Source: a virus
Length of the DNA: 33,620 bases
Virus record (IMG/VR): IMGVR_UViG_3300020152_000257
Location: 1-33,620 of that record
Direction: 5' to 3' (one strand)
Shown: piece after piece, positions 360 through 28,553 of the stretch
How the letters are laid out: each line of letters begins with the position of its first letter
Position numbering within the stretch: position 1 is the first letter of the stretch
Notes under the pieces: model-generated
What the model was told of the DNA's origin: nothing
Databases searched by the model: none
Seen by the model: only the letters and a program-made list of their open reading frames with translations
Program-made: the position numbers and the translations under genes

Positions 360-1220
360 TTAGATACACTGATTAAGGTTCATTGATACTACTGGATTTA
401 AATTATCACTATATATCAATATTTCTTGCCCTTTATACTTGTTACTAACACTGTAATTCAAAAAGTATCTTGTTTGCCTATACTCACTATAAAGCTCAGA
501 AATTTCCTCAACACTGTCATATGTCATAATCCAAGGTTGCCTAATATTTTCTCTTACCAATTTAGCTAATTTTGTGTGATCCTCATTATTATAAAAATTA
601 GTATATAATCCAGGACCCTTCTTATAATACGGTGGATCTAAGTATACTAAAGCCTTGTTAGGCATAGTAGTTAAAACATTTTCAATCAAATCAGCTGCAT
701 CCATGTTGTATAGAGAAATTCTATCTCTATATAACGCAATGGTTTTAATCCTTTTTATTAAATCACTCTTTGTAAACCTACAGTCAATTTTATATTCACC
801 TTTCTGCTCAAATCCACCTATTATACCACCTTTAATAATTCCTGAACGATTTGTCCTATTAAGAAAAAATGTTGAAAAGCCTAAGTGAAGCAAATCGTCC
901 GAGCTATCAAATATTTCCTTCTGTCGCAGCCATTCTTGCACTGAGATAGGTGTATTAATTATCATATTACATAGTTCTTCAGTTCTATATATAACCGAAT
1001 GCCAGAACGCATATATGGAAAAGTCGTAATCATTAATGACAATATTACTAGCTATATCATTTAACAGTAAAGCAAGAGCTGCACCTGCCCCACCCGCAAA
1101 AGGCTCAATATAAGTGCAGCCTTTTAGATTATTAAGATCTATAAGCTCTGCTATAAAATTTGTTAGCTTAGCTTTACCTCCTGGATACCTTAAGGGAGAT
1201 ATATTTTTACTCTTCAACAT
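360..1220 (-). CDS. DNA adenine methyltransferase, D12 class (accessory)
   Basis: This 286-residue enzyme transfers a methyl group from S-adenosylmethionine to adenine N6 in DNA. The SAM-binding motif EPFAGGAG is at residues 39-46, NRTNRSGI at 121-128 and the catalytic DPPY at 195-198. The N-terminal PLRYPGGK is typical of Dam/D12 enzymes. Length is normal. It starts at an ATG behind AAGGAGTGAT, 42 bases after the ParB-like gene, so the two are co-transcribed. The gene is visibly more AT-rich than the phage structural genes, which suggests separate acquisition. The window encodes a second, quite different Dam (28711-29532). The target sequence cannot be told. It may be a modification enzyme paired with the neighbouring protein, or an orphan methylase protecting phage DNA. 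Confidence 0.93.
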   Translation of the reverse strand: MLKSKNISPLRYPGGKAKLTNFIAELIDLNNLKGCTYIEPFAGGAGAALALLLNDIASNIVINDYDFSIYAFWHSVIYRTEELCNMIINTPISVQEWLRQKEIFDSSDDLLHLGFSTFFLNRTNRSGIIKGGIIGGFEQKGEYKIDCRFTKSDLIKRIKTIALYRDRISLYNMDAADLIENVLTTMPNKALVYLDPPYYKKGPGLYTNFYNNEDHTKLAKLVRENIRQPWIMTYDSVEEISELYSEYRQTRYFLNYSVSNKYKGQEILIYSDNLNPVVSMNLNQCI

Positions 1221-1262: not shown

Positions 1263-2738
1263 TTATTCTTGGCCACACTTTTCTGAGCAGAAGTCTATAA
1301 TATGTTGTATTAAGGCAGAATACCCTGAGCCAGTTACAATAGCATCCAACACTTCAGGAGTTGCTGCAATCTCGTGAGGATGGTGGACTATCATGTTGAA
1401 GTATTCTTTTATACCTTTAGTTTGAAATATGATTGAATAATAGCGTTCTAGAGTCCTATCCTGTGCAAAAATATCTGTATCTTTTTCAAACTTATCAAGT
1501 ATTTCCGTTAAGGTTGGTTCATTCTTTTTTGAAGAATAAAATTTGCTCCACTTGTTTCTTTTCTTTAGATAACAAATTAAGCTCTGTTCCAACAAATTAC
1601 GCATCAGCATAGCAGTAGCTATTGGATAATCAACGTAATGCTTATTTTTAGATATCTTCTTAAGCTCTGTAACAAGTCGTATGATTCCATCAGAATCATT
1701 AGAGGACTTTAAATCGCAAATGAGGTTACTCAACAAAGGAGCAGGCCTCGTTGATACTCTCCGTTTAGGTTCGGGTTCAGCTATCTCCTTTAATGTAATT
1801 GCTGTAAAATCTTTGGCTTCCCCATCCACATCTTTATTTCCCTGAGGCTTATCAATTACTTCAGGCGTGGAACTGCCATTAACGATTACATTATCAAGGT
1901 TTATATCAGTAGTTACTATACACTGGTTAGTATATCCATTATTGAGCCCCAAACTCTTAAAGAATGTATCAATAGCTTCATTATCATAGACGGTTCCGAC
2001 AGACTTTCCCTTTAATGCTTCTATTGTTTTATTAATCCTTGTTATAAAATCTTGAATGCCAATTATAATGCAATATTTACTTTCAATAAAATCTAGACCT
2101 AAATACGAGCGTCCTACTGTTCCAAGAATTCTATCCCAGTTAGTTTTGCTTATACTGAAAACTTGATCCTTATCCAAAATCCCCTCTTCTATTAAGTGTG
2201 TTTGAAAATCAAGAAGTGGTGTTTTCTTTCCTCTATACTTATTCCAGTTTTGTTTTTCTGGAGCTCCCCATGGGTCTAGCCCTTTTCCTTCCTGTTCACC
2301 ATTATGTCTTAACTCAATCCATTGCTCGAGATCTTCATTCTCTGATTCTACATATACTCTTGCTGGTATGCTGTCATAAATGCTCCCCCTAGCCTTTCTT
2401 GATAGATCAGTAAAAGTCTCAACTAACTCAGGAAACTCTCTAGGGATTATATCAGGGGTCCTAAGCATTTTTAAGCAAGCAAGTCTTCTATTTCCTTCCT
2501 TAACAACCATGAACCCATCTTCAAACTTTAATACTCCTATTGGCTCAATAATACCGTTATTTTCAACAATTGATTCAGCTAGTGTTATTAATTTATTATA
2601 TGGTTTTTTATTTTTTATGAAGCTTTGTTTTTTTACTAGACTTTCTAGTTCTAATAATTCATCTTCTACTGCACCTATTCTTGGGTTATCTGTCCACAAG
2701 TGTAAGTCCGCCAATTTAAGATAAGCGATTTGCGCCAT
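1263..2738 (-). CDS. ParB/Srx-fold protein with novel C-terminal region
   Basis: This 491-residue protein begins with a ParB-like domain (about residues 1-95): the opening strand ends in NPRIG, followed by LAESIVENNGIIEPIGVL and then VVKEGNRRLACLK. GNRR (82-85) replaces the GERR box of ParB. This fold occurs in CTP-binding ParB proteins, in nuclease-like phage proteins and in defence NTPases. The remaining ~390 residues match no family I recognise. About 330-385 is Pro/Lys/Arg-rich and linker-like. The last ~130 residues look helical and contain NMIVHHPHE, faintly recalling HEPN-type domains. The start has a strong GAGGGGGG site. The protein lies directly upstream of an adenine methylase in a private operon past the prophage late terminators. 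A role in restriction or defence is inference from this arrangement. Confidence 0.75.
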   Translation of the reverse strand: MAQIAYLKLADLHLWTDNPRIGAVEDELLELESLVKKQSFIKNKKPYNKLITLAESIVENNGIIEPIGVLKFEDGFMVVKEGNRRLACLKMLRTPDIIPREFPELVETFTDLSRKARGSIYDSIPARVYVESENEDLEQWIELRHNGEQEGKGLDPWGAPEKQNWNKYRGKKTPLLDFQTHLIEEGILDKDQVFSISKTNWDRILGTVGRSYLGLDFIESKYCIIIGIQDFITRINKTIEALKGKSVGTVYDNEAIDTFFKSLGLNNGYTNQCIVTTDINLDNVIVNGSSTPEVIDKPQGNKDVDGEAKDFTAITLKEIAEPEPKRRVSTRPAPLLSNLICDLKSSNDSDGIIRLVTELKKISKNKHYVDYPIATAMLMRNLLEQSLICYLKKRNKWSKFYSSKKNEPTLTEILDKFEKDTDIFAQDRTLERYYSIIFQTKGIKEYFNMIVHHPHEIAATPEVLDAIVTGSGYSALIQHIIDFCSEKCGQE

Positions 2739-8028: not shown

Positions 8029-9150
8029 TTATATCAACCCTCCATATACGACATTGATTGTGCCTGCCTTGGCCACATGGCCTTCTGCTACAGCAGTATA
8101 AACAGGGCTTGTAATGTCAACCCTGAAAGCACCGGCCACTAGCATAAGGTTTTTCAGGGTATCAGGATTAACTGCCCTTTTGAGTTTTGCATGCTGCCAG
8201 GCTATATACTGGTCTATTGAGCCTCCATCATCTTCTATAAGACTGCGTATCACAGCTTCTTCTGCGTTACGCTCCGCTGAGATATAATAAGTGAGATTAA
8301 TATTATAAGTATCCACTGTAGCAGCTGCAGCTGTCACAAGGTCTGACATCGGCCTTCTATTCTTAGGAGTAACTGCAGCAAGTACAGTATCAAGAACACT
8401 CTGGGCAGGCAGCTCTCCATCCTTCATTAGAACAACAACAACTATTTCCAGAGGAGCCGGTGAGAGTATTCCTACATCAGCAATATTAATATCAGCAGTC
8501 TTAGCCCAATATATATATCCGCCTTCAGGTCCGGCTGTCGAATAGCTGTCTGATGAAAGCCTTATTCTTTCACGATATCCACTCCAAACATTAACTCCGT
8601 CATCATCAGGCTCTATATCAGCACCACCTGCGCTTTCATCTATATTTGTTACTGATATTACATAAGGTGTTGAATCAATAATTTTATTGATTTGTCCTGG
8701 CACAAACCCATTATACTGGGGACCTGTTTTCACTGCTTCAGCTATAACAGTCCCTTCAATCTGACCTGCAGGTACGACGCAATCTACTTTATTTGCGAAG
8801 AATAACACTCCATCAGGTGAACCTCTCTTGCCGGCTGCTATCGTAACAGGTGCAATCTGAGCTGCAGAGAGTGTCCATTTAAGAGTAACTATTGCATTCT
8901 GAGCTTTTAACCTCGGTGTATTATACCCTAGGGCGTCAAGATTTTCTCCACGGGCATATCTCAAAAGGTTCTGTTTCCCGGTCTCATTGATATCATTCTT
9001 TAGTCCTACAATAACCGGAGTATGCTGCAATAAAAAAATCCTGCGTTCATCGCCAGGATATAAGGTTTCTCCTAATGCCACTTCAAATTGGCTTATCATA
9101 TCATTCTGTATGGCCAGAGCATCAACTTCAACAAATTTAATATCGCTCAT
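8029..9150 (-). CDS. Baseplate protein J (P2 gpJ/Mu gp47-like)
   Basis: This 373-residue protein forms the outer baseplate wedge of contractile tails. The N-terminal part has the family's opening helices and LLRYARGENLDALG, where the conserved 'A.G..LD..g' motif sits. The middle SGYRERIRLSSDSYSTAGPEG segment and the following IYWAKTAD are the strongest gpJ signature. The C-terminal third is the usual alpha/beta region. It overlaps the W gene by 4 bases and abuts gpI, so the W-J-I order of P2 is kept. Confidence 0.93.
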   Translation of the reverse strand: MSDIKFVEVDALAIQNDMISQFEVALGETLYPGDERRIFLLQHTPVIVGLKNDINETGKQNLLRYARGENLDALGYNTPRLKAQNAIVTLKWTLSAAQIAPVTIAAGKRGSPDGVLFFANKVDCVVPAGQIEGTVIAEAVKTGPQYNGFVPGQINKIIDSTPYVISVTNIDESAGGADIEPDDDGVNVWSGYRERIRLSSDSYSTAGPEGGYIYWAKTADINIADVGILSPAPLEIVVVVLMKDGELPAQSVLDTVLAAVTPKNRRPMSDLVTAAAATVDTYNINLTYYISAERNAEEAVIRSLIEDDGGSIDQYIAWQHAKLKRAVNPDTLKNLMLVAGAFRVDITSPVYTAVAEGHVAKAGTINVVYGGLI

Positions 9151-9452
9151 ATATCTACCACCACCCGCATTTTCATACTTCCAGACTTTGTTACCCCCAG
9201 GTACTCAACGTTCTCAACTGTTGCCCTTGGCTCTCTGAGTGCAATTACCTCTCTAATACTATTTGCTGCAACTGCTGCTGCTTGTGGAGCTGGCAGGTCA
9301 TAAAAATCCCTTTGTATGCCAACGGTTCGGGCATAAGCTACTTCATAAGCAGATGTATTAATGAGATTCACTACATTCTGCAGGATTCTTTCATTCCCTT
9401 TAGCACCCCATGTTATTCCTGCAGGCTCGTCAGTATTTATGAAATACTGCAT
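9147..9452 (-). CDS. Baseplate protein W (gp25-like)
   Basis: This 101-residue protein is a gpW/T4 gp25-type baseplate wedge component. GAKGNERILQNVVNLINTSA and VAYARTVGI match the family pattern of an early 'Q.i..il.T..GER'-like segment, and SIREVIALREPRATVENVEY matches the C-terminal half. Such proteins initiate sheath polymerisation. It is preceded by GGGGTGAT and overlaps gpJ by 4 bases. Confidence 0.85.
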   Translation of the reverse strand: MQYFINTDEPAGITWGAKGNERILQNVVNLINTSAYEVAYARTVGIQRDFYDLPAPQAAAVAANSIREVIALREPRATVENVEYLGVTKSGSMKMRVVVDI

Positions 9453-9465
9453 GCTATCACCCCAA

Positions 9466-10008
9466 TTATGCTAATGCCAGCCCGCCGGCCTTGGCTCTGG
9501 CTACATTGGTATTTGTTATAATTTTGGTTCCATCAGGCCCGAACAAAGCCTGAGATACATCCGCGCTTACACCACCCGCACCGCTGCCGGTACCGGTGCT
9601 TTTTGCGCTGCCGGCTCTTACATACTCTTCAAGCTTAATAGATAGTATGACCTTTACGATCTTTCCGTCTGCACCTATCTGTTTATATGCTATTTCTATG
9701 CTTTTCAGCATAAGTGGAAACTCAGATATATTCTTTCCACCAATATTCATGTGGTATACTGCTCCGGATTTGCATATGTCCCTCCACTTCTTTATCTCCG
9801 CTTCAACATCAATCCCTAGCGTCTGATCCAGCGTTACATCATAGGATATCTGATCGAGTCCAGGACCCTTTTTATAAGTGGATGGCTTTTTCCCTATAAC
9901 TTCCTGCGTCTCTGTGTTATATGAAGCAGATAGGGATAGATTATCAAAGGTACTTACCTTTTGGCTGGATACTGAAAACACGAGACTTCCATAAGCTCCG
10001 ATTATCAT
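9466..10008 (-). CDS. Tail protein U (P2 gpU-like)
   Basis: This 180-residue protein begins IIGAYGSLVFSVSSQKVSTF, the opening of gpU-type proteins ('lG.fvF.v....p.'). Its middle GPGLDQISYDVTLDQTLG and SGAVYHMNIGGK region also fits. GpU takes part in completing the tail and baseplate hub. The C-terminal 45 residues are Gly/Ala/Ser/Thr-rich and low in complexity (SAKSTGTGSGAGG), unlike P2 gpU, and are probably a flexible tail. In P2 the gene lies between T and D; here it lies after V, an order common in Firmicutes myoprophages. Confidence 0.85.
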   Translation of the reverse strand: MIIGAYGSLVFSVSSQKVSTFDNLSLSASYNTETQEVIGKKPSTYKKGPGLDQISYDVTLDQTLGIDVEAEIKKWRDICKSGAVYHMNIGGKNISEFPLMLKSIEIAYKQIGADGKIVKVILSIKLEEYVRAGSAKSTGTGSGAGGVSADVSQALFGPDGTKIITNTNVARAKAGGLALA

Positions 10009-10295
10009 GCATCAACCCTCCCTATTACAGCACCATCTTTCATATTGCCAGACCAGAACATGACCAGGACTACATCCCCGATATTCAGCTTCTGTGTCAA
10101 GGTACCGGACATTTTCCCTGTTATCGTTGTAGGCTCCCCTGAGGATCCAATCAAAACATCTGTAATCCCAACATCAACCTGGTCCAATACAAACTTCATA
10201 ACCGGCAGCTCAGTTGTACGTACATTATCCATATCCGGAAACCATACTGTCACTTTATCGCCTGCAATACTGTCAACCTTGCCTTTTTTATTCAT
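10005..10295 (-). CDS. Short gpV-like OB-fold baseplate protein
   Basis: This 96-residue protein is all beta and has the pattern of the gpV/gp5 N-terminal OB domain (KVDSIAGDKVTVWFPDMDN, then ITGKMSGTLTQKLNIGDVVLV and KDGAVIGRV). P2 gpV is about 211 residues because its OB domain is followed by a trimeric beta-helix spike; here that spike part is missing altogether. It probably plugs the end of the tail tube, and another protein may provide the tip. It overlaps gpU by 4 bases and directly follows gpD. Confidence 0.8.
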   Translation of the reverse strand: MNKKGKVDSIAGDKVTVWFPDMDNVRTTELPVMKFVLDQVDVGITDVLIGSSGEPTTITGKMSGTLTQKLNIGDVVLVMFWSGNMKDGAVIGRVDA

Positions 10296-11221
10296 TAATA
10301 ATCACCTTCAATCCCTTTACGGCACCAGCAGTATGTATATCCGTTAAGCAGGCTGTGGTCCACACGGGTTAAGTACCATTTGCCATCTGCAGCTCCCAGA
10401 TCCTCTATGTTAATATTAACTGCAGCTGCTATGGTAGTATCCAGCTGCACAGTAAAAAATCCCTGGCTTTCATTTTTATTGGCTTGCCTGAGGGCGGCCT
10501 TCAGGAACCTTTCAGCCTCGCCTATACTTGCTGCATGCTCAGTTACTCTCAAAGTTCCACCATACATTTCAGGGACGTTATGTGTGTACTCCAGCAGGTT
10601 ATTTCCAGAATCGTAATACTTGATTATGCCCTGTGCTTTTAGATCAATTGCAATGGATTTAAAAATGCTCCTACCTACCATCTGGCTTTTGGATATAGTT
10701 TTTACAGAGGTTTTACACTCAAAAGCCTTTTCTCCAAAAACAACAGCCTTGCCATTATTGCATTTGAGACAGTAGCCCTCCCGCTCACATAGGCATTTTA
10801 AGAATAAGAGGTTTCCTGATCCCTTCTGCTCAACCCTATCATATGTATGGTCTGCAATATCATAAGTCTCCAGGGACAATCCGCATGCAGCAGCAACCTC
10901 CCGTGCTATCTCCATAAAAGTTGCTTCATTCCAAGCTCTGAAGGCTTCCGATTTACCTTTCTCAGGAGAAGAAATTGCCATAGCCTTATATGTTTGACCC
11001 TCTATTATCCATCCATCAAAGTACATCAAGCCTGTTGAGTATCCATCAACAGATACTTCAATTTCATCTCCCTTCTGAGGCTGCCACTTTGCCCAGGCCT
11101 GCTCCGGATCCGGAAATATGATGTCTATGCTGTCAGCCAGGCCCCCGGCCTGATCATGCATGATAATATCCTGGATATCAACCTTGGGCTCGATGTTTTC
11201 CCCATTCCACAGCAGCTTCAT
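10295..11221 (-). CDS. Late control/tail hub protein D (P2 gpD-like)
   Basis: This 308-residue protein is the baseplate hub of the gpD/gp27/VgrG-N family. Typical features include the start LLWNGENIEPKVD, DSIDIIFPDPEQAWAKWQPQKGDEIEVS, and WNEATFMEIAREVAAACGLS followed by SGNLLFLKCLCEREGYCLK. The ATG at 11221 is preferred because GGTGAGG lies six bases upstream; eight extra residues would be added from an ATG at 11245 within gpX. It follows gpX with a 13-base overlap of reading frames at most, so translation is probably coupled. Confidence 0.9.
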   Translation of the reverse strand: MKLLWNGENIEPKVDIQDIIMHDQAGGLADSIDIIFPDPEQAWAKWQPQKGDEIEVSVDGYSTGLMYFDGWIIEGQTYKAMAISSPEKGKSEAFRAWNEATFMEIAREVAAACGLSLETYDIADHTYDRVEQKGSGNLLFLKCLCEREGYCLKCNNGKAVVFGEKAFECKTSVKTISKSQMVGRSIFKSIAIDLKAQGIIKYYDSGNNLLEYTHNVPEMYGGTLRVTEHAASIGEAERFLKAALRQANKNESQGFFTVQLDTTIAAAVNINIEDLGAADGKWYLTRVDHSLLNGYTYCWCRKGIEGDY

Positions 11222-25045: not shown

Positions 25046-25249
25046 CTAGAAGGACCCGTTGCCGGGTTGTCTAGGCTTCGGCGGCACTCTCAACCATCCA
25101 CACTGACTGCTTACATATGTCCATCCTGCCTGAGGCCTCCACTCATGCTCCGCTTTCTTGTATCCTTCGTAATATCCGTCTGACTTACCCAGTTTATAAG
25201 CCAAGATTATGCTTACTACAAATCCTGTTGTCATTGCTAATGTACTCAC
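25046..25249 (-). CDS. Small membrane protein at start of the packaging operon
   Basis: This 67-residue protein has one N-terminal transmembrane segment (about residues 3-19, TLAMTTGFVVSIILAYKL) and a soluble tail rich in Tyr, Trp and Pro (SDGYYEGYKKAEHEW, GWLRVPPKPRQP). The GTG start has an ideal GGGAGGTGAT. A hairpin terminator ends directly before this ribosome binding site. It is the first gene of the packaging operon. I recognise no family and no function can be assigned. Confidence 0.7.
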   Translation of the reverse strand: MSTLAMTTGFVVSIILAYKLGKSDGYYEGYKKAEHEWRPQAGWTYVSSQCGWLRVPPKPRQPGNGSF

Positions 25250-25375: not shown

Positions 25376-25409
25376 AATGCTTCACAGCATTTTATGAATA
25401 TAGTATAGT
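25376..25409 (+). promoter_or_regulatory. Promoter of the plus-strand peptide gene, with flanking inverted repeat
   Basis: TTCACA (25381-25386) is followed by exactly 17 bases and TATAGT (25404-25409), a good sigma-A promoter. The -35 is bracketed by AATGC and GCATT, a perfect 5-bp inverted repeat that could be an operator. Confidence 0.6.
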
Positions 25410-25442
25410 TGTATTATATTATTGAGTAGAGGTGATACTACA

Positions 25443-25523
25443 ATGCGCCATATATTAAAGGCCATAGTCATCACCGCATTCATAATTATAGAGTTAATAC
25501 TAAACACCATAATTGTTGAATAA
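25443..25523 (+). CDS. 26-residue hydrophobic membrane peptide, type I toxin candidate
   Basis: This tiny gene is on the strand opposite to nearly everything else. AGAGGTGAT lies six bases before the ATG. The peptide starts MRHILKAIVITAF, is almost entirely Ile/Leu/Val/Ala through residues 4-25 and ends IIVE, so it should be a single membrane helix with a basic N-terminus. Promoter, ribosome binding site, a strong hairpin and a terminator all surround it, making a complete ~230-base unit. Length, hydrophobicity and autonomy resemble type I toxins (for example TisB- or Fst-like) found in prophages. A clear antisense RNA promoter was not found, only a possible TATAAT inside the gene on the minus strand. 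Real expression is likely; toxicity is inference. Confidence 0.6.
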   Translation: MRHILKAIVITAFIIIELILNTIIVE

Positions 25524-25563: not shown

Positions 25564-25586
25564 TATAAATAACTATTATAAATAAT

Positions 25587-25611
25587 GCACTCCGTAACGA
25601 GTGCTTTTTTT
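25587..25611 (+). terminator. Plus-strand terminator of the peptide unit
   Basis: GCACTC-(6)-GAGTGC followed by seven T on the plus strand. It is the natural end of the 26-residue peptide transcript and faces a minus-strand terminator a few bases away. Confidence 0.85.
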
Positions 25612-25618
25612 GTGCAAT

Positions 25619-25639
25619 AAAAAAGAGCCTATTGGCTCT
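25619..25639 (-). terminator. Terminator of the K+ channel gene
   Basis: On the minus strand AGAGCC-(4)-GGCTCT runs directly into TTTTTT, about 36 bases after the channel stop codon. Confidence 0.85.
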
Positions 25640-25674
25640 CAATGGCTTTGGACATACGAAGTACCCAAAACTTC

Positions 25675-26889
25675 TTACCTGAAGCTTCCATACCTCTTAG
25701 TTAGAGAAAAAATTAGTAATGCAATGAGACTTGTGCCTGATACAGTTTCCAATCCAGCGCATGTTTTTGCAATTACTCCTATTGGAATAAAATCACCATA
25801 TCCCGTCGTAGTAAAAGTTATAGTTGAATAGTATAGGGCATTGAAGAAAGCATTAAATGCTGTCATATTTGTTTCATCTATATTACTTTTTATTCCACCA
25901 CTAAACAAATATATAAATGCAGAGATCATCCAGACTAAAAAAGACCAGCTTAAGGTGTAAGATGGCTTAAAACCATAACCGCAAGTTTTTTCAAGAATCC
26001 AGTATCCAATTCTTTTCATACTTTTCTTCATGTTTTTCCTTTTACAAAGCATATAGTTATATCCTGCATAAGCATATAAATCCGGATTATCCTCTGCGCG
26101 AGATGAATCCATTATTAATTTCCAAGAGTCTGCACATTTCTTTTCAATAGAGTTCTTTTTACATCCATATACACGATGAATAATGTAGTCAACAAACATC
26201 AGAAGGTATATAGTATTGTGTTGAAACTCTAAAACATCTACAGTAGATGCTAATATACAAAGCACTTTTAAGTTTGACATCATAGTAAGTCTATTAATTA
26301 TAGAATTATCTACTATACCAAGGTTTTCACATTCTGCATATGTTCCTAATGATAGTCTTTCAACTCTTGTGCCGTATAATGCTATGTTTACATAAGGGAC
26401 AAGGATGTACATATCCTTTATTTTAGAATCGTGAATTACAAGACTATCGACTATCGGTAGATCATTCTTATCAGCTTTTGTATCATTCATCTCCTTGCAA
26501 GTGCTAATCAAAGTATTAACATTTGAAGTACGAATATCAATATTAGCATCAATGCAGCATAAATTATCAACTACTAGTTTGTCAATTTTACCTTCCTTCC
26601 AAATGTTTTCTATATTTATATAAGAAAAAGTGGCTTCCATATTCAGATCTTTAGATAACGAAAAAGTGTCTATATCTTTTATTGTCAATATACACATTTG
26701 CATTGTTGAAATATCAGCTTCAAACCCATATATATCTTCTTTTGACATTTCACCTTCTGTAAAACTGCTCAGTTTTTCTGAATCTATCACCAATGACTCT
26801 GAATCAATTCTTATGGGTGCGCATTTATATATGGAATCCTCTCTAGTTGCTTTATCTTTAGAAAATACCTTTATATGTAGATTTATCAA
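25675..26889 (-). CDS. Beta-helix-like protein fused to a two-TM potassium channel
   Basis: This 404-residue protein joins a long N-terminal soluble domain to a pore. From the TTG start (26889, behind GGGAGGTGA), the first helix TM1 is at about 314-333 (SWSFLVWMISAFIYLFSGGI), a pore helix at 342-359, the K+ selectivity filter TTTGYGD at 360-366, and TM2 at about 371-396. This is a typical Ion_trans_2 pore; four subunits would form a channel. Residues ~90-250 have repeating hydrophobic strands such as NLGIVDNSIINRLTM and LKVLCILASTVDVLEF, suggesting a pentapeptide-like right-handed helix that may sense something. Such channels are unusual in phages. A role in superinfection exclusion by membrane depolarisation is inference. 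Confidence 0.85.
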   Translation of the reverse strand: MINLHIKVFSKDKATREDSIYKCAPIRIDSESLVIDSEKLSSFTEGEMSKEDIYGFEADISTMQMCILTIKDIDTFSLSKDLNMEATFSYINIENIWKEGKIDKLVVDNLCCIDANIDIRTSNVNTLISTCKEMNDTKADKNDLPIVDSLVIHDSKIKDMYILVPYVNIALYGTRVERLSLGTYAECENLGIVDNSIINRLTMMSNLKVLCILASTVDVLEFQHNTIYLLMFVDYIIHRVYGCKKNSIEKKCADSWKLIMDSSRAEDNPDLYAYAGYNYMLCKRKNMKKSMKRIGYWILEKTCGYGFKPSYTLSWSFLVWMISAFIYLFSGGIKSNIDETNMTAFNAFFNALYYSTITFTTTGYGDFIPIGVIAKTCAGLETVSGTSLIALLIFSLTKRYGSFR

Positions 26890-26971
26890 ATAATCACCTC
26901 CCACATGGGGTTATTCTTCATATTGAGGGTGTTTTCCTGCACAACCATAAATAAGCAACTAATATAAAAGT

Positions 26972-26997
26972 AGCACTCGATCAAAAAAGTGCTTTTT
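26972..26997 (+). terminator. Plus-strand terminator, copy of the 25587 element
   Basis: AGCACT-(10)-AGTGCT followed by TTTTT. It resembles the terminator at 25587 in stem, T run and the TGCAATAAAAAGAGCC that follows, although no plus-strand gene was found upstream of it. Confidence 0.65.
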
Positions 26998-27006
26998 CTA
27001 TGCAAT

Positions 27007-27029
27007 AAAAAGAGCCCTTATTGGGGCTC
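27007..27029 (-). terminator. Terminator overlapping the 54-residue protein's stop
   Basis: On the minus strand GAGCCC-(loop)-GGGCTC then TTTTT; the loop contains the TAA stop codon of the 54-residue gene. Confidence 0.8.
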
Positions 27030-27182
27030 AACTAATTTGTACTTTGTATAAATATCATTAATTGCATCATCTACATCTGCTTTTATATCATCAACTGTAT
27101 TTCGGTCTATTTCTGGATTGTTGTAATTAATTGCAAGTTGCAGATCATCTATGAATCTTTTCATTATCTCAAAATAGTCCAT
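27018..27182 (-). CDS. 54-residue acidic helical protein
   Basis: This small protein begins MDYFEIMKRFIDDLQLAI and is acidic throughout (DIKADVDDAINDIYTKYKL). The ATG at 27182 is chosen for GGGAGGTGAT six bases upstream. It appears mostly helical with no Cys, signal or membrane segment. It has its own operator-controlled promoter region upstream and its own terminator, so it forms a single-gene unit between the membrane protein and the K+ channel gene. No family is recognised; small acidic helical proteins may be antitoxin-like or DNA-mimic inhibitors, but nothing specific supports either. Confidence 0.7.
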   Translation of the reverse strand: MDYFEIMKRFIDDLQLAINYNNPEIDRNTVDDIKADVDDAINDIYTKYKLVEPQ

Positions 27183-27545
27183 AACTATCACCTCCCTTAT
27201 ATCCATATTACTCCAATATTCAGAAGGCTTGTATCACTATTCACCTAATAAAAAATACAGTTTATATAGGCAGGGGTACCACTGCAATATTTGATATGCA
27301 AATATCAAATTGTCAACACAGTTCTTCTTCTTATTATTCTCTTATTATTATATTATTCTTATTATTCTTTTATTATTAGCGAGGCGGTGTACCCCCTGCC
27401 ATTTTCGCAAATAGCATTTCAAAAAGGCCCCGGTACCCCCGCCATTTTTATTTTTTTTCATACCCCTCGCTACTATAATACATGCTTAGAATACAGATAT
27501 AAGAGCCTATTAAGCCTTATCAACACAATCATATCAATAAAATGA
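27183..27545. other. Non-coding regulatory region with repeats and AT tract
   Basis: 363 bases without a convincing gene. It contains a TTGACA-like -35 and palindrome (27289-27316), a tract of TTA/TTC triplets at about 27322-27377, and three related copies of a GGCRGGGG(G)TACC block (27269-27280 on plus, 27386-27400 and 27431-27443 on minus). A 37-codon minus-strand frame (27348-27461) has a weak ribosome binding site and was not accepted. The layout suggests a control region or origin-like element. Confidence 0.6.
27289..27316 (-). promoter_or_regulatory. TTGACA -35 next to a 9-bp palindrome (operator)
   Basis: On the minus strand TTGACA (27311-27316) abuts a perfect 9-bp inverted repeat, ATTTGATAT-(4)-ATATCAAAT (27289-27310), which would fill the spacer and -10 of a promoter. 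The -10 itself is poor, so the arrangement may be a repressor-controlled promoter for the small acidic protein gene. Confidence 0.5.
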
Positions 27546-28274
27546 TTAATTATAAAATTTATTCCTTTTCTCAAATTTACTTATGTACAACTCCAACTCA
27601 TCATAATCTATTCTTAGTGTATCTGCTAATTCAGTTCTATCAATTTTTCCACGCAATTTATAAAGCTGCATAATATCTGATAACACTTTCTTTTCTTTCT
27701 GCCTTTTAAGAATAATATAATATGGTTTCTTTATTTGAATACTAAACCATATCCGCCAGTAGATTAATCTTTTGAATCCCCTCAATTCAATAAATTCACT
27801 AGTAGTAATGCGATTAATAATGTAATAACTCATACTCTTTTTACCTGTCGTTGTCTCCCATGTGATCTGTATAGGTACTCGTGGTACAAGCCTGGCTTTA
27901 AAGACCATATTTGCTATCCCATCTTTTACTACTTCAGCATCTCCTTCTGATTCTATGAACACTCTCTCACATATTGGTTTATTAGAAAGCTTAATTATCT
28001 CACCAAAAGATAACGCCTTCATTTTTAGATTAATAGCCATACCAGGTCCATAATTTTTCACTTTTATAGTTTTCTCAATGGAATTTGCCTCTGATATATC
28101 CCATCTCATTGGCTTAACAATAGCTTTAAAGGGTTCATGTACCATTTTATAAGTAAGTCGTACATAGATAACTGTTACAATAAAGAGTAGAACAGCTGAA
28201 ATTGATTGTAGTATTGCTGAAAATACTTGCATTGAATCTCTATTAATATTTAACCACTCAATAACATTTTTCAA
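27546..28274 (-). CDS. Membrane-anchored protein, possible C-terminal winged helix
   Basis: This 242-residue protein has one N-terminal membrane segment (about residues 20-44, AILQSISAVLLFIVTVIYVR) and a cytoplasmic beta-rich domain (KTIKVKNYGPGMAINLKM, VFIESEGDAEVV, VPIQITWETTTGKK). Its last 45 residues (IMQLYKLRGKIDRTELADTL and following) resemble a winged-helix or HTH. The TTG start has GGAGGGAG seven bases upstream. It is AT-rich, lies in the accessory block and sits near the K+ channel gene; both are membrane proteins. No family identified. A sensor or regulator role is speculative. Confidence 0.65.
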   Translation of the reverse strand: MKNVIEWLNINRDSMQVFSAILQSISAVLLFIVTVIYVRLTYKMVHEPFKAIVKPMRWDISEANSIEKTIKVKNYGPGMAINLKMKALSFGEIIKLSNKPICERVFIESEGDAEVVKDGIANMVFKARLVPRVPIQITWETTTGKKSMSYYIINRITTSEFIELRGFKRLIYWRIWFSIQIKKPYYIILKRQKEKKVLSDIMQLYKLRGKIDRTELADTLRIDYDELELYISKFEKRNKFYN

Positions 28275-28378: not shown

Positions 28379-28534
28379 TCACTTGCGTTTTTCATATATA
28401 CATCCGGCGCCGAAAGGACAGTAATACTTATTCTCCATCCATATGCTGTGCGGACATCTGAAACATTTACAACGCTTCTTTTCCCTCATGAGCTTCCTGT
28501 ATTCCGGATCATGCTTATCAACAATCTGCCTCAT
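28379..28534 (-). CDS. 51-residue Cys-rich protein (zinc ribbon-like)
   Basis: This minus-strand gene encodes MRQIVDKHDPEYRKLMREKK followed by RCKCFRCPHS, then YYCPFGAGCIYEKRK. The CxCxxC and CPxxxxC pairs are well placed to bind one zinc. GGGAG lies nine bases before the ATG at 28534; an ATG two codons earlier at 28540 is also possible. It lies downstream of the Dam gene, after a promoter and terminator. Highly basic and small, it could bind nucleic acid. Family not identified. Confidence 0.65.
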   Translation of the reverse strand: MRQIVDKHDPEYRKLMREKKRCKCFRCPHSIWMENKYYCPFGAGCIYEKRK

Positions 28535-28553
28535 GGCCATCAACTCCCGGACA

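Follow-up and report, generated by a model that had tools for sequence, protein, structure and literature searches.

Potassium channels have been published in mycobacteriophages and in phages of Vibrio, Acinetobacter, Pseudomonas, Streptomyces and Lactobacillus (Greiner 2018, PMC6163359). In the parts of that review considered here, the chlorovirus channel Kcv is described as helping to prevent infection by competing viruses, and phages T4 and T5 are described as altering the K+ conductance of the host at DNA injection, with a similar role raised for phage K+ channels (PMC6163359). Like Kcv and these phage channels, the protein described below is encoded by a virus and has a K+ pore whose filter reads GYG or GFG, but the two-helix channels for which the same parts of the review state a size are of the pore type and have 79–228 amino acids, as against 404 here, and an N-terminal solenoid is not described there, nor is the word pentapeptide mentioned (PMC6163359). 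A minimal channel of the Kcv type consists of the pore only, about 80–160 amino acids, which our protein with its 404 amino acids and its N-terminal domain of 245 amino acids does not match.

The RexAB system of phage lambda has depolarisation of the membrane of superinfected cells as its proposed outcome; RexA is a separate sensor protein and RexB a membrane protein without a K+ filter. The outcome that we propose for the present channel is like that of RexAB, and the protein is not homologous to RexB.

A potassium channel pore joined to a diverged N-terminal domain

The window, that is, the whole stretch of DNA that was analysed, corresponds to one entire virus record in IMG/VR; the record is linear, has 33,620 bases and is possibly a fragment. 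Its channel gene (25675–26889, minus strand) is defined by an open reading frame of 404 amino acids, by an Ion_trans_2 match and by the predicted structure; it begins with a TTG codon at 26889, preceded by GGAGGTGAT, and its stop codon lies at 25675. The protein is laid out as a solenoid-like N-terminal domain (residues 1 to ~245), a helical linker with the motif CGYGxxP (~246–309) and a two-helix pore with TTTGYGD (~309–400). Pfam Ion_trans_2 (PF07885) matches residues 317–398 with an E-value of 2.6e-12 and a score of 46.9 bits, where the cut-off is 22.5, the selectivity filter FTTTGYGD occupies residues 359–366 after the pore helix, and the C-terminus resembles solved K+ channels by sequence. 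In an AlphaFold2 run with 31 homologous linker/pore rows, the first membrane helix (TM1) spans residues 309–329, the pore helix 344–360 and the second membrane helix (TM2) 372–400, with pLDDT mostly about 75–95, while a single-sequence run of the protein reached a pLDDT of 36. K+ channels are the best fold matches in both the PDB and a viral library, and against KcsA chains the TM score is 0.68–0.76 by target length. The claim of an earlier, sequence-only reading that a TTTGYGD filter lies between two membrane helices was borne out by the motif, the profile and the predicted helices alike. We infer that the channel would be a tetramer whose subunits together enclose one K+-selective pore in the membrane of the host. 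Only few residues remain after TM2, which leaves the N-terminal side as the place from which a gate would have to act.

The linker helices and the pore together (residues 246–400; 25690–26154, minus strand) form a module homologous to bacterial and archaeal pentapeptide-linked K+ channels. Against a profile of that family, built from chromosomal and plasmid members, residues 252–402 scored 101 bits, whereas the non-pentapeptide channels tested scored 44–60 bits; hhalign gave 99.6% over residues 269–400, and the invariant alignment columns of linker and pore are present in our protein. The best annotated relatives come from haloarchaea and Nostoc and go by the name of 'pentapeptide repeat-containing protein' or 'potassium channel family protein'; an unannotated Aeromonas copy can be added to them. 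Relatives and window protein have the pore in common, as well as a pair of linker helices and, immediately ahead of TM1, the CGYGxxP motif. The same linker, motif and pore are found in Haloprofundus WP_233340543.1, Halorarius WP_255152795.1, Nostoc WP_114085635.1 and the chromosomal copies of Aeromonas and Shewanella, and the pentapeptide-linked chromosomal channels are, like the window protein, almost without a C-terminal tail.

At the N-terminus the likeness ends: that of the chromosomal relatives matches pentapeptide models and that of the window protein does not, only a periodicity of ~20 residues, suggestive in the window protein, being common to both. Residues 1–245 (26155–26889, minus strand) match no Pfam family at an E-value of 10 and gave no credible match to solved structures by sequence, the single one having an E-value of 4.9. 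The pentapeptide Pfam models, PF00805 included, find no match in the channel protein at an E-value of 10, and hhalign of the N-terminus against the pentapeptide-linked channel family gave 0.2%. The periodicity is carried by the pattern phi-xx-phi-x-phi-xx[NST]-x-phi at residues 147, 166, 187, 207 and 217, and none of 20,000 shuffles matched the observed number of motif spacings of 18–22 residues, the motif having been picked post hoc from the sequence itself. AlphaFold2 modelled the N-terminus at low confidence (pLDDT mostly 28–60 over residues 80–245). Each coil of the right-handed beta-solenoid of pentapeptide-repeat proteins takes up some 20 residues, and short leucine-rich repeats (LRRs) are of nearly that length too. 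An LRR-type reading (LxxLxLxxNxL-like) was considered, and no Pfam LRR model matches. Judged from sequence, the evidence that the repeat is real is suggestive only, and a beta-helix-like domain is plausible. The sequence-only reading had described a phage-encoded channel fused to a domain of repeating hydrophobic strands. The pore match, the family profile and the periodicity uphold the fusion to a repeat-type domain; for the strands themselves, the recurrence of the ~20-residue motif, found post hoc, has to be set against the missing pentapeptide match and the low-confidence fold.

With the full-length protein as query, no direct relative was found in viral contigs, genome contigs or named phages. 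A genome scan confirmed 411 relatives out of 596 pattern matches, and the 80 that were kept come chiefly from marine and aquatic Gammaproteobacteria, a taxonomy that the query patterns may have biased. At 14 of the 80 kept loci, genes for exonuclease III and for a response regulator lie close to the channel gene, a conserved non-phage neighbourhood, and the family is therefore partly an ordinary chromosomal gene; plasmid copies of pentapeptide-linked channels likewise occur in non-phage settings. In the pore tree the window protein has a long branch and groups weakly with the chromosomal family (92/88), the other members from phages standing apart (92/91). An ordinary chromosomal channel was what the sequence-only reading had named as speaking against it. 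The family is indeed common on chromosomes of Gammaproteobacteria, but the N-terminus of the window protein differs from that of the chromosomal members. Our literature search returned nothing on point about pentapeptide-linked K+ channels or about K+ channels in phage defence; by its sequence, then, the channel half is a member of a common bacterial channel family for which we found no functional study in the literature.

A terminator-bounded cassette in a tailed phage

The channel gene stands alone between two related terminator elements of ~60 nt. The one downstream is bidirectional (25580–25645; stems 25587–25604 and 25640–25623) and the related one lies upstream (26962–27035; stems 26993–26972 and 27029–27012); they have a 24-nt core in common, where 0 are expected by chance. 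The terminator search found 10 against 2.4 expected, and two of them bound the channel gene. A strong ribosome-binding site, GGGAGGTGATTAT, precedes the start codon (26890–26902, minus strand), and a near-identical Shine-Dalgarno stretch, GGGAGGTGAT, is found before the channel gene and before the small genes at 25046–25249 and 27018–27206. No sigma-70-like promoter was detected between the upstream terminator element and the start codon of the channel. Of the block with its own promoter and terminators that the sequence-only reading had described, the two flanking terminators were thus recovered and the promoter was not. GC3 is 0.25 in the channel gene, 0.25 in the gene at 27546–28274 and 0.27–0.28 in a PD-Lambda-5 pair, against 0.39–0.49 in the other genes measured. 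We take the channel to be probably an accessory cargo gene ('moron') that would be transcribed apart from the late operon.

Several small genes and elements surround the cassette. Small accessory genes lie on the minus strand at 25046–25249 (67 amino acids), 27018–27206 (51–62 amino acids) and 28379–28543 (54 amino acids). Beside the channel gene, on the opposite strand (25422–25523, plus), a frame of 33 amino acids encodes a small, very hydrophobic peptide containing MRHILKAIVITAFIIIELILNTIIVE; it has a promoter-like site at 25381–25409, an RBS-like GAGGTGAT and a terminator after it, and it resembles a type I toxin or a small membrane peptide. A low-complexity TTATTATT tract at 27310–27380, between the small gene at 27018–27206 and the gene at 27546–28274, forms a perfect 16-nt inverted repeat to 27707–27722. 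The gene at 27546–28274 (minus strand), with the GC3 of the channel gene, encodes a protein of 242 amino acids with one N-terminal membrane segment, matches no family other than, weakly, phrog_9607, and is a possible partner of the channel. Rfam gave no match within the window.

The channel gene lies amid phage genes, among them those for the terminase small and large subunits (TerS/TerL), portal, tail sheath and tape measure, with the terminase genes directly downstream, and the phage that carries it is a tailed, contractile one. Its nearest named phages are distant, with a terminase identity of at most 49%, and because they are phages of Exiguobacterium, Roseburia, Faecalibacterium and Paenibacillus, the sequence comparison suggests a Bacillota host; the host is probably a Gram-positive bacterium. 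The closest relative in IMG/VR, G007, has 76% identity in TerL. Other genes stand upstream of its terminase, and neither the protein screen nor the PF07885 screen detected a counterpart of the channel in it. The 23 records of close phage relatives that were screened with the channel protein gave no match. In a PF07885 screen of close relatives, which covered 60 records, a clear Ion_trans_2 gene was found only in G023, a Campylobacterota-like contig, among the phages found via terminase or portal; that gene has another architecture and is close to the contig end. In related phages, what lies upstream of TerS is a mixture of early genes (methyltransferases, integrases, TubZ, HicB) and not chiefly defence genes, and neither a tyrosine integrase nor a resolvase was matched within the record.

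At the left end of the record there is a complete PD-Lambda-5 A and B pair of low GC3, a known type of phage defence, consisting of a PD-Lambda-5_B-like methyltransferase (360–1220, minus strand; E-value 2e-122) and a PD-Lambda-5_A-like protein (1263–2738, minus strand; E-value 1.3e-47). Being ~23 kb from the channel and not in the same operon, the pair establishes that the record carries defence cargo, but not that the channel belongs to that cargo. When the channel protein was compared with the PADLOC defence models, 0 families matched at an E-value of 1.

Related channels in other viral contigs

Scans of viral contigs for the pore gave 5 loci and then 59 loci. The majority belong to different types of channel, and many of these, as judged from sequence, are Kv-like, the pore being preceded by an RxxRxxR-type segment; among the Kv-like ones are K+ channels of ~240 amino acids in L200–L209, L213–L215, L225–L227 and others, where the stretch is possibly host flank. 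L198 has a K+ channel of another kind (membrane anchor, ~200 amino acids, TLGFGD pore) beside a second membrane-protein gene (8161–9177 and 9599–10450, plus strand), the two lying on the strand opposite to the head and terminase genes of that phage contig.

A pentapeptide domain together with a two-helix pore was recognised in three phage contigs, each time at a cargo position: near an integrase and a helicase in L193 (3146–4123), between endolysin and integrase in L194 (7459–8844), and, on the opposite strand, between the genes for terminase and portal in L251 (5391–6413, 340 amino acids). The first two match Pfam pentapeptide models, while the third was judged by its sequence and by phrog_15350. 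This PHROG family, of 'unknown function', matches a haloarchaeal member of the channel family with an E-value of 1.2e-75, so the channel type is already in virus databases with no function assigned. Like the window channel, the three channels and phrog_15350 combine a repeat domain with a two-helix pore as phage cargo, but L193, L194 and L251 fall on another branch of the pore tree. The rarity of ion channels in phages that the sequence-only reading had put forward therefore needs narrowing: K+ channels of phages are published (PMC6163359, in the parts considered) and one scan alone gave 59 loci, whereas the solenoid-fused type, recognised in this record and three contigs, is rarer than phage K+ channels generally.

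What the channel may do

As the most likely explanation we tentatively propose, with rather less than even confidence, superinfection exclusion or abortive infection by solenoid-gated K+ efflux, with the channel as an accessory cargo gene. In the host membrane, four subunits would make up the K+-selective pore, and four cytoplasmic solenoid domains would gate it through the linker helices; the solenoid domains are placed at the gate because the protein all but ends with the second membrane helix. The solenoid would detect a cue, which may be DNA, a ligand made by a phage, or something that a second phage produces; the pore would then open, K+ would flow out, the membrane potential and internal K+ would be altered, and the loss of K+ would stop the incoming phage. 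Exclusion of this kind would be analogous to the proposals for RexB and to the reports on chlorovirus Kcv. A role in phage competition is suggested because of the cargo position, the foreign composition, the defence company, the recurrence in phages and the Kcv precedent (PMC6163359, as far as considered). The proposal is weakened because no PADLOC model matches and the record is without integrase or resolvase, because PD-Lambda-5 is ~23 kb away and related phages have early genes of mixed kinds upstream of TerS, and because relatives of the channel are ordinary genes on the chromosomes of many bacteria.

Another explanation is that the phage has acquired a bacterial channel for lysogenic conversion or host fitness, which would tune the host's membrane potential, its K+ balance or its response to osmotic conditions, with no part in phage competition. 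A mostly chromosomal and widespread family, the non-phage neighbourhood with exonuclease III and response-regulator genes at 14 of 80 loci, and the non-phage settings of the plasmid copies are all consistent with this. We nevertheless consider it unlikely, if far from negligible, given that the N-terminus is unlike that of the chromosomal proteins, that defence cargo is present in the same record and that unrelated phages carry such channels at cargo positions.

A service to the phage's own cycle, by early K+ release or depolarisation or, as suggested for Vibrio-phage channels, by the timing of lysis, would recall the change in K+ conductance at DNA injection by T4 and T5 and the similar role raised for phage channels (PMC6163359, in the parts considered). 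However, the terminator-bounded cassette lies upstream of the packaging genes and away from the lysis genes, a simple leak needs no regulatory domain of 245 residues, and the nearest relative phage is without such a gene, which is therefore dispensable for the shared cycle; we regard such a role as improbable. Slightly more improbable still is that the gene is a passenger, recently acquired and scarcely expressed or non-functional: foreign base composition and the failure to recognise a promoter inside the cassette would agree with that, but the frame is open over 404 codons, filter and gate motif are intact and the ribosome-binding site is strong.

An extension of the exclusion proposal, in which the solenoid-gated phage K+ channel would be a one-protein defence and the pentapeptide-linked channels of other phages the same unrecognised type, appears doubtful to us. 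Phage K+ channels are already known (PMC6163359, in the parts considered), and many genomes have genes annotated as pentapeptide-linked channels; what is new is that a phage carries a member whose N-terminal domain has diverged and whose gene lies in a cassette bounded by terminators. Widespread as pentapeptide-linked K+ channels are, the literature search found no functional study of them. The module occurs as phage cargo in at least two lineages of the pore, and in one case the record also has a known defence pair. If it is protective, a K+ pore and an intracellular sensor would be united in a single protein, which would be a bacterial counterpart to Kcv in chloroviruses.
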